A stretch of 64,000 nt of DNA. Origin: an uncultured Pelagibacteraceae bacterium. Lineage in GTDB: Bacteria; Pseudomonadota; Alphaproteobacteria; Pelagibacterales; Pelagibacteraceae. Position numbers and translations under genes: made by a program. The DNA is taken from the NCBI GenBank assembly GCA_902620525.1, contig CACNIK010000001.1:1-64000 (forward strand). Direction: 5' to 3'. The notes beneath the pieces are model-generated. The model saw only the letters and a list, made by a program, of their open reading frames with translations. It made no database searches and was not told the DNA's origin. The stretch's first letter is position 1, and each line of letters begins with the position of its first letter. Positions 786 to 7,169 of this stretch are shown in pieces.

Positions 786-1875
786 TTATTTATTTAAAAC
801 TCCTGCTTCAATAAAGCTATCAATGTCCCCATCTAGAACTGCATCAGGGTTAGTGTTTTCTGTTTTATTTCTTAAATCTTTTACAAGTTGGTATGGTTGT
901 AAAACGTAGGAACGAATTTGGTGTCCCCATCCTATATCTGTTTTAAGATTAGATTCTTTTTGGTTTTCCTTTTCTCTCTTTTGTAATTCATATTCGTAAA
1001 GTCTAGCTTTTAACATTTTAAAACAAGTATCTTTATTTTTATGTTGTGATCTTTCGTTTTGGCATTGAACAACAATTTTCGTGGGAATATGTGTTATCCT
1101 CACAGCACTATCGGTTGTATTTACATGTTGGCCACCAGCTCCGCTCGACCTGTATGTGTCTACTCGTAAATCATTTTCATTTATTTCAATACTTATATCA
1201 TCATCTACTACTGGATAAACCCAAACACTAGCAAAACTAGTGTGTCTTCTGGCTCCACTATCAAAAGGAGAAATTCTTACTAACCTATGAACCCCTGACT
1301 CATTTTTCATTAATCCATATAAATTCAAACCCAAGACTTTCAAAGTTGATGACTTAATTCCTGCTTCCTCACCTCTATGTTCGCTAATTATTTCATAAGA
1401 AAAATTTTTTTTATCAAACCATTTTATATACATTCTTCTTAACATTTCAGCCCAGTCTTGGCTTTCAGTCCCTCCCGCTCCTGCATGGACCTCAAGATAA
1501 ATATTAAGAGCATCATTTTCCCCAGACAGAAAACAAGCTACTTCTAATTTTTTGATGTCTTTAAATAATTCATTAATTTTAAGCTCACAATCTTTTATAA
1601 TTTCTTCATCTTTTTCTTCATTTCCTAAAAAATATAAATCTTTAAGGTTTTTAAATTCCTTATCTATATTTTTGTAAGAAGAAATTAAATTAGAATAAAA
1701 ATTTTTCTCTTTAAGAATTTTTTTAACCTTTTTTTGGTCTTTCCAAAAACTTTTTTTTGACGTCTCTTTTGTAATTAATTCAAGCTTATTCTCAATTTTA
1801 TTACTTTCAAAGATACCCCCTAATATTTTCTAGTATCTTATTTATATTGTTAAAAGATGTTTCAAAAGATTGCAT
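786..1875 (-). CDS. prfB: Peptide chain release factor 2, made by programmed +1 frameshift
   Basis: RF2 ends translation at UGA and UAA. The gene is in two frames. A 22-codon zero frame starts with ATG at 1875-1873 and stops at TGA 1809-1807; the rest reads from GAA at 1808 to TAA at 788-786. The join is AGGGGG TAT CTT TGA, the classical autoregulatory slippery site with an internal Shine-Dalgarno three bases upstream of CTT. The fused product is about 362 residues, the normal RF2 length. Seen in the main frame: the peptidyl-hydrolysis loop GAGGQHVN, the stop-codon-reading SPF tripeptide in RISPFDSGARR, and the N-terminal helical domain. The start overlaps the ponA stop by one base (TAATG). 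A caller that ignores the frameshift would report only the C-terminal 219 residues from 1445. Confidence 0.95.
1807..1824 (-). promoter_or_regulatory. prfB +1 programmed frameshift site
   Basis: On the minus strand the sequence reads ATT AGG GGG TAT CTT TGA A. It carries the internal Shine-Dalgarno-like AGGGGG (1821-1816), the slippery CTT (1812-1810) and the UGA stop (1809-1807). By established knowledge from E. coli, slow UGA termination when RF2 is scarce lets the ribosome slip from CUU to UUU and continue in the +1 frame, so RF2 controls its own level. The core sequence here matches the E. coli one from AGG through TGA. Confidence 0.93.
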
Positions 1876-4226
1876 TAATAAAATTGTCTAAATTTAATTA
1901 GTTTATCATAATTATAGTTTGAAATTAATTGCTTATTATTTAGATTGTTAATATCTTTTTTCTTAAATGCCTCAAGTATAAAATTTTTATCATCAAAATC
2001 AGTTTGTTTTCCGGTATTATAATTTATTGGTGCAAAATAAATTCCATCAGGAACTTCAAATTCTTCAAAATCATCCAAATATAAAACTCCTTTTATAAAC
2101 TCTTTAAATATTGGAAGAGCTGCTTTTGATCCAGTTTCATATTTCCCTAAAGTTTTAGGATTATCATAACCAATATAAACTCCAACAACTAAGTTGGAAT
2201 TATAACCGATAAACCAGGCATCGAAATTATTATTTGTAGTTCCAGTTTTTCCAGCTATAGGAACTTTAAGATCTCTTAGTTTTTTTCCAGTTCCTCTTGT
2301 AACTACACCTTTAAGAATAGAGGTCATTTGATAAGCAGTTTGCTCGCTGATTATTTGTTTATTATTAAAGTCAATTTTAGGAAAACCTTCCTCTTTATTC
2401 TCCTCATTATATCGATCACACCCCTTGCAGTTTGCAAAATTTGAGGAAAATATTGTTTTTCCTCTTCTGTCTTGGATACGATTTATAAGTACAGGTTTAA
2501 TTTTTTTTCCTCCATTTACAAATGTTGCATATGCTGAGGATAAATTAAGTAAAGATGTTTCAACTGAACCTAAAGAAACCGACAGTAGCTCAGGTATTTC
2601 ATCATAAATTTCTAATTCTCTAGATAAGTCCAAAATTTTATTTACTCCAAGATTTTTAGCAATTCTCACTGTCATTAAGTTTCTAGAATATTCAATTCCT
2701 TTTCTTAAAGTTGAAGGTCCATAAAATTTTTTTCCATAATTTTCTGGCTTCCAATCTTTCAATCCAATTCCTTGCTCAGCTATAAAAGGAGCGTCTAAAA
2801 TTATTGAGTTAGGAGCTAAGCCGTTTTCTATAGCTGCTGCATAAACAAATGGCTTAAAAGCTGATCCAGGTTGTCTTTTCGCTTGAGTAGCTCTGTTAAA
2901 TTCACTAGATGCATAGCTAAATCCTCCAACCAAAGCTTTTACTTCACCAGTAAAGGGGTTTAAAGCTACAATTGCTCCATTAACAACTGGATACTGCTTT
3001 AAACTCCATTCTTTATTATTTTTTTTTATAAATACTAAATCACCTATTTCAAATATATCTTTTATATCCTTTCTTTTGATGACCCACTTTAAGTTAGATT
3101 TATAAATCCTTATATCTGAGTTCTTTTCTGATTTTAAAACTAAATAGTTTTCATTTATTTCTGTAATTTCAGCTTTTTTCCAATTTAAAGTTGGATCTAA
3201 ATTATAATTTTCTAATTTTTGTTTCCAATTATTGTCTTTAAATTTATTGGTGATTGGCCCTCTCCAACCGTGTCTCCTATCATAGGACTCTATACCATTT
3301 CTGAGCGCATTAATTGCTTCTATTTGAAAATCGATGTCTAATGGTGATTTAATGCTAAGTCCTTGAGTATACAACTTTTCAAAGCCGTATTTATCTTTAA
3401 TTATTCTTCTTACTTCTTCAGTATAAGAATTAGCTTCATTTACTATCTCAATTTTTCTTTTTTTTATTTTTATCTTTTTTTTCTTATATTCAAGGTATTG
3501 ACTGTCATTTATGAAACCATTTTGATTCAAATTTTTTAAGACTAAGTCTCTACGAAATTTAGCTTCATTAGGGTCTTTGACAGGGTTATAACGACTCGGA
3601 GCTTTTGGGAGGGCTGCAAGTAAAGCTGCTTCTTCATAGTTTAAATCTTTAATTGATTTATCAAAGTACTCTAAACTCGCTGCAGCAACTCCGTATGTGC
3701 CTTGACCGAGATATATTTGATTTAAATAAAGCTCTAAAATTCTTTTTTTGGAATAAGCATTTTCAATTCTAAAAGCTAAAATTGCTTCCTTGATTTTTCT
3801 TTTTAAGGAAACTTCATTGGTCAAAAGAAAGTTTTTTGCGACTTGTTGAGTAATTGTGGACGCACCCTCAAGTCTTTTATCACCTAAAATATTTTTTATA
3901 TTGTTTACAGTAGCTCTCAATATACCTTTGGCATCGACTCCAGGATGATTGAAAAAATTCTTATCTTCAGCTGAGAGAAACGAATTTATAACTTTATTAG
4001 GAATAGAGTCATAGGGCACGAACAACCTTTTTTCTAGGGCGTATTCTGCTATTAATTTTCCGTCTTTTGAATATACTCTACTTGATATTGGTGGCTGATA
4101 ATTAGATAGTTTTTTATAATCAGGTAATCCTGATGAAAAATAAAAAAATGCTGAAAAAATTAGTAAAAGCGATGAAATGAGTATTATAATTAAAGCTTTT
4201 AAAGAGAAATTAATAAGGTTAATCAT
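1875..4226 (-). CDS. ponA: Penicillin-binding protein 1A, bifunctional transglycosylase/transpeptidase
   Basis: A class A PBP that polymerises and cross-links peptidoglycan at the outer face of the inner membrane. At 783 aa it is family-sized. A single membrane anchor covers about residues 10-32. The GT51 domain shows SAEDKNFFNHPG (catalytic Glu87) and EGASTITQQVAKN. An OB-like insert follows (about 310-410). The transpeptidase domain carries the three active-site motifs: SAFK (Ser455, Lys458), the SRN motif in EYSRNLMT, and KTGT (Lys660). First gene of a probable ponA-prfB-AsmA-like operon; 136 bp separate it from the divergent RNase E gene, so promoters should lie there. PBP1A rather than 1B because of the long OB-type insert and the motif spacing. 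Confidence 0.95.
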   Translation of the reverse strand: MINLINFSLKALIIILISSLLLIFSAFFYFSSGLPDYKKLSNYQPPISSRVYSKDGKLIAEYALEKRLFVPYDSIPNKVINSFLSAEDKNFFNHPGVDAKGILRATVNNIKNILGDKRLEGASTITQQVAKNFLLTNEVSLKRKIKEAILAFRIENAYSKKRILELYLNQIYLGQGTYGVAAASLEYFDKSIKDLNYEEAALLAALPKAPSRYNPVKDPNEAKFRRDLVLKNLNQNGFINDSQYLEYKKKKIKIKKRKIEIVNEANSYTEEVRRIIKDKYGFEKLYTQGLSIKSPLDIDFQIEAINALRNGIESYDRRHGWRGPITNKFKDNNWKQKLENYNLDPTLNWKKAEITEINENYLVLKSEKNSDIRIYKSNLKWVIKRKDIKDIFEIGDLVFIKKNNKEWSLKQYPVVNGAIVALNPFTGEVKALVGGFSYASSEFNRATQAKRQPGSAFKPFVYAAAIENGLAPNSIILDAPFIAEQGIGLKDWKPENYGKKFYGPSTLRKGIEYSRNLMTVRIAKNLGVNKILDLSRELEIYDEIPELLSVSLGSVETSLLNLSSAYATFVNGGKKIKPVLINRIQDRRGKTIFSSNFANCKGCDRYNEENKEEGFPKIDFNNKQIISEQTAYQMTSILKGVVTRGTGKKLRDLKVPIAGKTGTTNNNFDAWFIGYNSNLVVGVYIGYDNPKTLGKYETGSKAALPIFKEFIKGVLYLDDFEEFEVPDGIYFAPINYNTGKQTDFDDKNFILEAFKKKDINNLNNKQLISNYNYDKLIKFRQFY

Positions 4227-4362: not shown

Positions 4363-6195
4363 ATGGATAAAAATTTATACATTGATGCATCGCATCCAGA
4401 TGAAACTAGAATTGTTCTTAAGTCAAACATTTCAATCGAAGAATACGAATACGAAGATAAGAATAGGTTAAATTTTAAGAACAATATTTACTTAGGAACA
4501 ATCAGTAGAGTTGAGCCTTCTCTTCAAGCAGCTTTTGTAGATTTTGGAAGAATAAAACACGGATTTTTAGCTTTTAATGATATTCAGTCCGATTATTATC
4601 AAATCCCATCTGAGGACAAAGAGAAATTGAAAAGTGCCGAAGAAAAAATTCGTGAAGATTTAAAAAACACCACTATTGAAGAAATTAATAATCAAGATAC
4701 AACTTTGAATAATGAAAAAAATGAAAGTCCAGAGGAGCAAAATAAAAATTCAAGCTCTTCAGTCTCTGAAAACAAAAGTAATTATAGAGAAAAACTTAAA
4801 AATACTTACGGATTAAAAAAATATAGAATTCAAGAGGTTATTAAACCTGGACAAGTTATATTAATACAAGTTTTAAAAGAAGAAAGAGGTCAAAAAGGTG
4901 CGGCTTTAACAACTTTTATATCTCTTGCAGGAAAATATATGGTCTTGATGCCCAACACTGCGAAAGGTGGTGGAATCTCAAGAAAAATTTTTAATTCAAA
5001 TGACAGACAAAAAATTCGAGAAATTTTAAATAAAATAGAAATCCCGAAAAGTATGGGTGTAATAGTTAGAACAGCTGGTGCAAACAAAACCAAAAACGAA
5101 ATAGAAAAAGATTTTCAAAATACTTTAAAAACCTGGGAAGAAATCAAAGATAAGGCAGTTGTTTCTAACGCACCTTCACTAATTTACGAAGAAGGTGACA
5201 TTATTAAAAGGGCTTTAAGAGATATTTATGATAATGACACAAAATATATTTATGTAGATGGAAATGAAGGATATCAAAAAACAAAAAAATTCATGAAGGA
5301 ACTAATGCCAAAAAACGCAAAATATGTAAAGAAATATAGAGGCAAGATACCTTTATTTCATGATGCTTTAATTGAAAAAGAATTAAATAATATTTTTGAA
5401 CCAACTGTAAAACTAAAATCAGGAGGTTATTTAGTTATTAATCCAACTGAGGCTTTAGTTGCAATTGATATAAACTCCGGTCAATCAACAAAACAAATGA
5501 ATATTGAAAAGACAGCTTTAAATACAAACCTTGAAGCTGCTGAGGAAATTTGTAGACAAATAAAATTAAGGGATCTCTCTGGTTTAATAGTTATAGATTT
5601 TATTGATATGTTAAATTTTTATAACAAAAGAACAGTTGAAAAAAAAATGAGGGAATGTGTAAGAAAAGATAGGGCTAGAATACAAATAGGTAAAATAAGT
5701 AATTTTGGTTTGCTCGAAATGACTAGACAAAGATTAAGAGAAGGTTCAATTCAGTGGGAAACAAATTTATCTTTAGAGTCTTTTTCACAAAAAATCGTTA
5801 AAAAGATAGAAATGTTAGCATTTAACAATAAGATAAAAATTATAAAGGCTTATGTGCCTGATAAAGTAAAATTATACATTGAAAATAATTTATCTAAAGA
5901 ACTAATTTATTTTCAAAAAAAATACTCTTACAAAATAGAGATTATGGAAAAAGCTCAATTTATTATACCTGAATACAAAATAGAATTGCTGAACAAATCA
6001 AAAAAAATAATTAATAAAATAGAACATGTGAGTCATATAAAGTATTTAAGTTCCGAGAGAGAAAAATTTTCAAAAAATCTGATAAATGACAAAAAAAATC
6101 AAAAGTCACTAACAAAAAAAGTAAAAGTAAGAGAAGAATTAAAAAAAGAAAAAAAACCTAGAACTTTGTGGGTAAGAAAAAAAAAGGCTAGCTAA
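4363..6195 (+). CDS. rne: Ribonuclease E/G family endoribonuclease without zinc-link cysteines
   Basis: Endoribonuclease for mRNA decay and rRNA/tRNA processing. The N-terminal S1 RNA-binding domain (about residues 38-185) is split by a charged, low-complexity insert (about 80-145), as in alphaproteobacterial RNase [21 protein letters not shown] and GGGISRKI mark the 5'-sensor/S1 region. The two metal-binding catalytic aspartates are in [10 protein letters not shown] (Asp369) and VIDFIDM (Asp412). After [10 protein letters not shown] (454-462) the usual CPxCxG zinc-link is missing: the chain goes straight to [11 protein letters not shown]. The long C-terminal degradosome scaffold of E. coli RNase E is also absent; the protein ends in a short lysine-rich tail (610 aa). 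Its stop overlaps the convergent thiG stop by 8 bp. Whether it behaves as RNase E or RNase G cannot be settled from sequence alone. Confidence 0.88.
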
Positions 6196-6964
6196 TTAAA
6201 TCTTTTTCTGGAGAAGTAGCTCTAGCAAAATTACTTTTTTTCATTCGCCCTGATAAAAAAGATTTTCGTCCAGATATTACAGCATATTTAAAAGCTTCGG
6301 CCATTTGTATTGGTTTTTTTGCTAAAGCTATTGCTGAATTAATTAATACTCCATCACAACCCATCTCCATTGCAATTGTAGCATCTGAAGCGGTGCCAAT
6401 ACCTGCATCAATTATAACAGGCACCTTCGACTGCTTGATTATTAATGAAATATTAAGTTTATTATGAATTCCAAGTCCAGATCCAATAGGCGCAGCCAAA
6501 GGCATAATAGCTGAAGCTCCAATGTCTTCTAACTTTTTTGCATGTAAAGGATCATCAGTGCAATAAACTAAAACTTTAAATCCTTCTTTAACTAAAACTT
6601 TTGTAGTTTTTAATGTCTCAATCATATCAGGATATAAAGTTTTTTTATCTCCTAATATTTCTAGCTTTACCATTTTCCATCCACCAATTTCTCTTGCTAA
6701 TCTTAAAGTTCTTAGTGCATCACTAGAATTAAAACATCCAGCGGTATTTGGTAGATAAATAATTTTTTTTGGATTTACATAGTCCATTAGAAGTGGTTTT
6801 TTTTTATCAGATATATTTACTCTTCTTACTGCCACTGTAACCATATCAGCACCAGATGATTTAATAGCTTTTGCAGTCTCAATAAGATTTTTATATTTAC
6901 CTGTTCCAACTATTAGTCTAGATTTAAGTATTTTTTTATCAATTTTAAAAATATCTCTTTTCAT
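6188..6964 (-). CDS. thiG: Thiazole synthase
   Basis: ThiG builds the thiazole phosphate moiety of thiamine from deoxyxylulose 5-phosphate, ThiS-thiocarboxylate and dehydroglycine. The TIM-barrel markers are all visible: RLIVGTGKY near the start, the Schiff-base lysine in MVKLEILGD (Lys100 from the chosen start), APIGSGLGI and [13 protein letters not shown] phosphate-binding loops. I prefer the ATG at 6964 (MKRDIF), two bases after the thiS stop, over the in-frame start at 6979 that would overlap the essential ThiS C-terminus. Tail overlaps the RNase E gene by 8 bp. thiC is not in this window. Confidence 0.94.
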
Positions 6965-6965
6965 T

Positions 6966-7169
6966 TTAGCCCCCACCAATAAATTGAACTATTTCAATTT
7001 TGTCATTATTTTTTAATTTTTTTTTTTCGTATTTGTTTTGGGGTATTATTTTGCCATTAAGTTCTATAGCTACCTTTTTTCTACTTAATTTATATTTTTT
7101 TAATACTTCCAGTATTGAAAAATTTTGCTTTAAAGCTACTTTTTTTCCATTTATTTGAATTTTTGCCAT
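6966..7169 (-). CDS. thiS: Sulfur carrier protein ThiS
   Basis: A 67-residue beta-grasp protein ending in Gly-Gly-Gly, the tail that is adenylated and converted to a thiocarboxylate to deliver sulfur to thiazole synthase. Features seen: [10 protein letters not shown] at the N terminus (ThiS strand 1), the central [11 protein letters not shown] segment, and [10 protein letters not shown] at the C terminus. It lies directly upstream of thiG in the same operon. Only 32 bp separate it from the divergent aroQ. Confidence 0.93.

Follow-up and report, generated by a model that had tools for sequence, protein, structure and literature searches.

The zinc link is regarded as one of the features on which the working of RNase E depends, and the rne gene of the analysed stretch of DNA, 64,000 nucleotides in length and called here the window, raises the question of how this enzyme may be assembled and may function when the link is missing. 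SAR11, to which the window belongs, ranks with the most abundant marine bacteria. A clean loss of the motif in such a very abundant order, with the catalytic and small domains kept, represents a natural experiment on the purpose of the motif, and SAR11 RNase E offers a convenient way to learn whether the enzyme requires zinc or the tetramer at all. A 2025 paper (PMC12510024) presents the CxxC as a conserved feature of RNase E across the Alphaproteobacteria, and in the accessible portions of the open-licence literature on RNase E, SAR11/Pelagibacter and the zinc link we found no report of its deletion in SAR11.

The rne gene and its product

The gene and the features of its product used in our analysis are the following.

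4363..6195, plus strand: rne, RNase E/G family endoribonuclease with the zinc link deleted, 610 aa (profile matches)
4609..4812, plus strand: S1-domain insert of variable sequence, residues 83-150, with part of it disordered in the model (identity, pLDDT)
5068..5073, plus strand: 5'-sensor residues Arg236-Thr237 (invariant in the 44-row alignment)
5398..5733, plus strand: DNase I subdomain, residues 346-457 (6x2d match, invariant residues)
5467-5469, 5473-5475 and 5596-5598, plus strand: catalytic residues D369, N371 and D412, respectively (invariant in 44 rows)
5734..5772, plus strand: shortened linker, residues 458-470 (alignment)
5755..5757, plus strand: Trp465, the linker tryptophan (present in every SAR11 sequence read)
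about 5769/5770, plus strand: the 11-residue zinc-link gap (MAFFT placement, ambiguous by a few residues)
5773..6030, plus strand: small (thioredoxin-like) domain, residues 471-556 (PF20833 match, block pLDDT)
6157..6192, plus strand: conserved C-terminal tip, residues 599-610 (tip comparison across SAR11)

The rne product scores above the cut-offs of TIGR00757 (464.7 bits, cut-off 325.95) and PF10150 (334.9 bits, cut-off 25.5) and barely above that of the small-domain profile PF20833 (27.2 bits against 26.8, match 470-541). It falls below the cut-off of the RNase E equivalog NF008074 (PRK10811; 397.9 bits, cut-off 908), and likewise below each cut-off of the other three NCBIfam equivalogs compared. 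A search of the host genome (1.09 Mb, 96% complete) returned a single RNase E/G match, the rne gene itself, and a second copy carrying the zinc link is thereby ruled out. Judged by its sequence, rne is the single-copy RNase E/G orthologue of a SAR11 bacterium, and its product appears to be a variant of RNase E that lacks the zinc link and keeps the small domain. Residues D369, N371, D412, R236 and T237 are invariant in the 44-row alignment; the first-pass annotation of this locus had correctly described the two catalytic aspartates, D369 and D412, as intact, and the catalytic N371 is present as well. The role of Arg236-Thr237 as the 5' sensor is one that we assume by correspondence to R169/T170 of the E. 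coli enzyme.

The neighbours of rne, both named by eye, are a penicillin-binding protein 1A-like gene (1875-4226, minus strand) and, on the other side, a thiG-like gene (6188-6979, minus strand) that overlaps the 3' end of rne by 8 bases. Further along lies prfB, for release factor 2 (786-1875, minus strand, also named by eye), for which the list of open reading frames gives only the downstream 219 aa; an ATG at 1875 is followed by 22 codons and then by AGGGGGTATCTTTGA at 1807-1815, which resembles the classical RF2 programmed +1 frameshift site.

Absence of the zinc link

In the window protein RQRLR is followed by no CPxCxG, where other alphaproteobacteria have, for example, PSLIETSTRPCAHCNGLGFVRSTES. 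The alignment gap relative to alphaproteobacterial RNase E amounts to 11 residues and spans the CPxCxGxGxxR hairpin, so the motif is missing just as the earlier reading of the locus had it. The alternative of a CxxC shifted to another place is ruled out by the alignment and by the list of cysteines, of which the protein has just two, C397 and C432, with CxxC nowhere along the chain. That this enzyme must do without the zinc link appears, as far as sequence can tell, well supported.

Distribution in SAR11 and in other Alphaproteobacteria

No CxxC was found in any of 147 distinct SAR11 RNase E sequences, nor at any of the 177 loci from which they come, which cover two families (f1, with the window genus, and f2) and ten genera. 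By group, the counts of CxxC are 0/94 in the window genus, 0/2 in genus g6, 0/17 in g3, 0/7 in g2, g4 and g5 together and 0/13 in f2, with 0/14 among further distinct open reading frames of g3 and f2. The 94 open reading frames counted in the window genus, some of them truncated at contig ends, represent 123 loci, and this group (g1) includes loci L058-L137, which were put there by identity (73% or more). All sampled SAR11 RNase E thus lacks the motif, and the thought that the deletion might be limited to one assembly is contradicted by the 177 loci. The same sequences share a tryptophan in the linker, usually in the context RQRL[RK]-x3-[IVL]-x-W, which was present in 133/133 and 14/14 distinct SAR11 open reading frames and at 177/177 loci; among the other Alphaproteobacteria it was seen in one of 133 (L356), two places earlier and with the CxxC kept.

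For the comparison outside SAR11, 140 genomes of other Alphaproteobacteria were taken, of which 2 were without a match, 5 had matches that were left unread and 133 were read, starting from the 30 best-scoring rows, then 20 early-ending or short ones (3 of these being second paralogs) and then 86 more. The best match carries CxxC in 131 of the 133 genomes read (30/30 of the best-scoring, 86/86 of the later and 15/17 of the early-ending or short rows), with such variants as CPHC in L180 and CLYC in L193. Among the second paralogs, L230 and L231 are without CxxC and L232 has it. In a phylum-wide sample of 100 genomes all 28 new loci read (L245-L272, at least four of them alphaproteobacterial) carry the motif. 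Given 131/133 other Alphaproteobacteria and 28/28 phylum-wide loci with CxxC, its absence in SAR11 is not a matter of chance.

The two exceptions, both coming from the rows picked as early-ending or short, belong to small genomes of 1.2 and 0.8 Mb. L229 (genome G368) has a clean gap and a GGWW tip, with 28 residues left unread, and L235 (G274) retains the length of the hairpin with the cysteines gone. The zinc-link motif can therefore be lost by two routes, by a clean gap as in L229 or by loss of the cysteines as in L235.

The order-wide protein search gave no match in 17 of 197 genomes and the genus search none in 9 of 61. Five of the match-less f1 genomes are more than 90% complete, and TIGR00757 is blank in them too; we presume that the match-less SAR11 genomes are incomplete assemblies.

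History of the deletion

A maximum-likelihood tree was built from the catalytic region up to RQRL for 49 rows, with the linker, the small domain and the tail excluded, and it lacks three of the chosen rows (L193, L236 and L243). In this tree f1 and f2 form one clade with support 98/91. L237 (genome G259, family code f10, 1.4 Mb), the branch next to SAR11, carries CHTC together with a GWW tip. Outside SAR11, in an adjacent group supported at 87/82, stand L229 and L235, on long branches that leave their placement unsure; their shared ancestry with SAR11 was rejected on this position, with the same reservation. On the sequences at hand, the simplest history has a single deletion in the SAR11 stem, with the motif lost independently once or twice in other lineages. 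In the ancestor of both sampled SAR11 families some 11 codons would have been deleted in frame, taking away the CPxCxGxG hairpin that lay between the catalytic and small domains, and the remaining linker would have fixed a tryptophan, as the alignment and the tree together suggest. Such a deletion, if it happened once in the SAR11 stem, would be a rare genomic change by which the clade can be recognised, and if L237 corresponds to HIMB59/AEGEAN-169, the deletion would mark the disputed border of SAR11.

The C-terminal tip and PNPase

The first-pass annotation considered the C-terminal scaffold to be gone. As to length this holds, the small domain of the window protein being followed by about 54 residues, but a conserved C-terminal tip was overlooked. 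In C. crescentus the GWW tip binds PNPase, and replacement of either Trp by Ala severely disrupts the binding, according to the part of PMC3376730 consulted. GWW is present in 13/13 SAR11 f2 sequences and in 26/30 other Alphaproteobacteria. The window protein has no such PNPase-binding tip and ends in TLW instead; the window genus has a basic TLW tip in 93/94 sequences by pattern, the remaining one being TLWVK, and g6 has TLW or ILW (2/2). No Trp was found in the last 40 residues in g3 (17/17) or in g2, g4 and g5 (7/7, with L141 truncated by a contig end). Since f2 is without the zinc link yet has GWW, the loss of the link and that of the PNPase tip are distinct, and the f2/f1 split tells them apart. 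Family f2 has kept GWW; in the window genus and g6 [TI]LW stands in its place, as a replacement or an eroded form, and the remaining sampled genera of f1 have lost it, which may affect PNPase binding. Residues 599-610 of the window protein are possibly a derived PNPase- or RNA-binding tip.

The genome encodes its own PNPase (G000:C6:7382-9412, 1043.6 bits), and PNPase scored above the cut-off in 28 of the 30 genomes searched, this one included; there was no match in G021 (window genus, 94% complete) and none above the cut-off in G160 (54% complete). The suggestion that SAR11 RNase E works without a degradosome therefore stands in one part, the long scaffold being missing, and is weakened in another by the GWW kept throughout f2, the conserved TLW of the window genus and the encoded PNPase.

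In a comparison of 28 PNPases, f1 is set apart from f2 and three other Alphaproteobacteria by 26 of 690 columns, and 6 of these columns lie within residues 213-233, a clustering with scan p of 0.0098 under a uniform model and 0.0202 over eligible variable columns, where the 21-residue stretch was picked after seeing the data, for which the scan corrects only partly, and where the comparison rests on few rows (five from f2 and three from other Alphaproteobacteria). These residues may, with uncertainty, be assigned to the alpha5-alpha6 linker of the GWW pocket and the stretch ahead of it (PMC3376730, as far as the part consulted describes it); the assignment comes from predicted helices, and counting the short helix 167-171 would shift the numbering, upon which the argument fails. 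The alpha2-beta7 pocket loop, residues 103-110 by the same reading of helices, contains zero fixed-difference columns. Within this loop, 4 of 20 f1 rows retain Gly106, the PNPase of the window's own genome among them. C. crescentus PNPase has EPFAF where f2 and the three other Alphaproteobacteria have [DE]PW. Taken together, the columns suggest, though uncertainly, that the PNPase pocket of f1 may have changed along with the RNase E tip.

As a separate observation on the same protein, the FF aperture motif at PNPase residues 55-60 reads YF (DYFPLS) in g1, g3 and g6, including the host's own L212, and DFFPLT in f2, g2, g4, g5 and the three other Alphaproteobacteria.

Structure and conservation of the domains

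The AlphaFold2 model of the window protein (mean pLDDT 77.5, pTM 0.73) has good confidence for the greater part of the catalytic and small domains; its uncertain regions are the S1 insert, mostly at 104-146 (pLDDT below 50 at 104-142), and the tail 559-610. Its large domain superposes on E. coli RNase E (2bx2_L) with Z 32.5 and rmsd 3.5 over 384 residues, the DNase I domain matches V. cholerae RNase E (6x2d) with 66% identity, rmsd 1.3 and Z 20.5, and the S1/5'-sensor region of C. crescentus RNase E (4oxp) fits with rmsd 2.2 over 198 residues. The small-domain block has pLDDT of 83-93 up to residue 550 and a confident fold at 471-556. The best E. coli RNase E match covers model residues 1-474 only, and matched chains extending to residues 543-552 have rmsd 14.6-16.5. 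In the monomer model the small domain is placed unlike that of E. coli, at a whole-chain rmsd of about 15 or more; its orientation is flexible in E. coli too, as stated in the part of PMC2631609 consulted.

Between SAR11 and other Alphaproteobacteria the mean identity is 0.67 for the DNase I subdomain, which is among the most conserved, and 0.18 for the small domain. Within SAR11 it is 0.25 for the S1 insert and 0.36 for the small domain, the latter being the fastest-changing folded part of SAR11 RNase E.

Assembly without the zinc link

In E. coli RNase E, as described in the part of PMC2631609 consulted, self-contacts of the DNase I domain dominate the dimer interface, dimers are linked through the small domains, and the two isologous interfaces are hydrophobic; zinc sits at the homologous place in the structures, and mutation or deletion of the zinc motif leaves an enzyme of lower activity that forms no tetramer. 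We propose, with a probability of roughly 0.58, that the SAR11 enzyme went through one stem deletion after which the DNase I dimer was kept and the quaternary structure became independent of a shared zinc ion, the tip having changed separately. The catalytic residues, the 5' sensor and the S1 domain are kept, and the activity would be kept with them. The DNase I-DNase I dimer would most likely still form, with the small domains in place, and the quaternary structure would no longer depend on a shared zinc ion. As the weakest step of this scheme, Trp465 may pack where the hairpin sat. A zinc-free dimer or tetramer on the old surfaces is the likeliest arrangement because SAR11 RNase E retains both of these domains, DNase I and small; we infer from the sequences that a zinc-free dimer is the most likely state, and that the old non-zinc interfaces are likelier than a different dimer interface. 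The behaviour of the E. coli zinc-motif mutants, which lose the tetramer and activity (PMC2631609, same part), counts against a zinc-free assembly. Conservation of the DNase I subdomain may reflect the active site alone, the fast-changing small domain does not argue for a strengthened tetramer interface, and the deviating placement of that domain in the monomer model speaks against the proposal as well.

A serious, though on balance unlikely, alternative is that SAR11 RNase E is a monomer or a loose dimer, its higher-order assembly having been shed under genome streamlining, with a less active enzyme tolerated and RNase J perhaps helping. The same E. coli mutants without a tetramer speak for it, as do the fast evolution of the SAR11 small domain and a minimal E. 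coli RNase E peptide which, by the title of Caruthers 2006, retains core catalysis without the tetramer-forming domain. It may also draw on an RNase J-like match in the host genome, which is partial, cut by a contig end and under the cut-off (257.4 bits against 400). What weighs against a monomer is the high conservation of the DNase I subdomain, which provides the main dimer surface of the E. coli enzyme, though the active site could explain it, together with the retention of the small domain and the linker Trp of every SAR11 sequence, which argues for a structured linker. RNase Y was also considered as an alternative RNase and ruled out, with no match in the host's own genome.

The lost motif may not have been a zinc bridge at all, since C. 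crescentus RNase E keeps its CxxC and yet is reported to bind no zinc in vitro (PMC12510024, where the constructs named are residues 451-898), and its cysteines form disulfides with Cu2+. By extension, the alphaproteobacterial CxxC would be a redox or other-metal motif, acting mainly as a thiol switch, and assembly would never have been zinc-dependent. We consider this rather improbable in view of the zinc found at the homologous place in the E. coli structures (PMC2631609, part consulted) and of the same C. crescentus paper, whose consulted text terms the region a putative Zn-binding domain.

The first-pass annotation suggested that another dimer interface may be used, and one unlike that of E. 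coli, formed around the linker Trp, could have replaced the zinc link. The occurrence of this residue at all SAR11 loci against one of 133 other Alphaproteobacteria, where it stands elsewhere in the linker, fits the proposal, but the Trp may do no more than pack against its own chain, and we consider a new interface improbable. Continued use of a metal through other ligands (His/Asp) in the linker or the small domain is very hard to reconcile with residues 454-470, which contain neither His nor Cys in the window protein, and with the residues after the linker, which differ between SAR11 genera in the alignment. A sequencing, assembly or frame artefact can practically be set aside, the same gap occurring in 147 distinct sequences from many genomes, among them the one-contig G061, G063 and G067, which also rules out an artefact of a single assembly.

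Returning to the zinc-independent assembly on kept surfaces, its fullest version would be a zinc-free RNase E held by the old hydrophobic interfaces and a clade-specific Trp latch, in which the hairpin was removed once and the contact to PNPase was either rebuilt in f1, by way of the TLW tip and a changed PNPase pocket, or dropped there; taken with all its parts, we offer this as a tentative idea that may well not hold in full. As to the cause, a saving of zinc is possible. SAR11 is reported to have minimised the uptake of trace metals with the exception of high-affinity zinc uptake, znuA being found in half of the SAR11 genomes of that study (PMC4771312), and this exception gives no help to zinc thrift as a cause.

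Comparison with known systems

The catalytic half of E. coli RNase E (2bx2, 2c0b, 2vmk, 6g63) has the catalytic Asp and Asn residues in common with the window protein, and its large domain superposes on the model; it differs in having CPxCxGxG and a long C-terminal scaffold, whereas the window protein is without the link and has about 54 residues after the small domain. C. crescentus RNase E possesses both the CxxC (CEHC) and the GWW tip, according to the parts of PMC12510024 and PMC3376730 consulted, and the window protein has neither. A short RNase E is shared by Pelagibacterales, for which a length of 720 aa or less has already been published, and by Rickettsidae including Wolbachia, whose enzyme is without GWW (PMC5436854, part consulted); the words 'zinc' and 'Zn-link' have 0 occurrences in the main text of that paper. 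Another branch, that of cyanobacterial RNase E, is likewise without one of the two tetramer elements, but in the opposite sense: according to the part of PMC10989914 consulted, there the link is kept and the small domain is missing.
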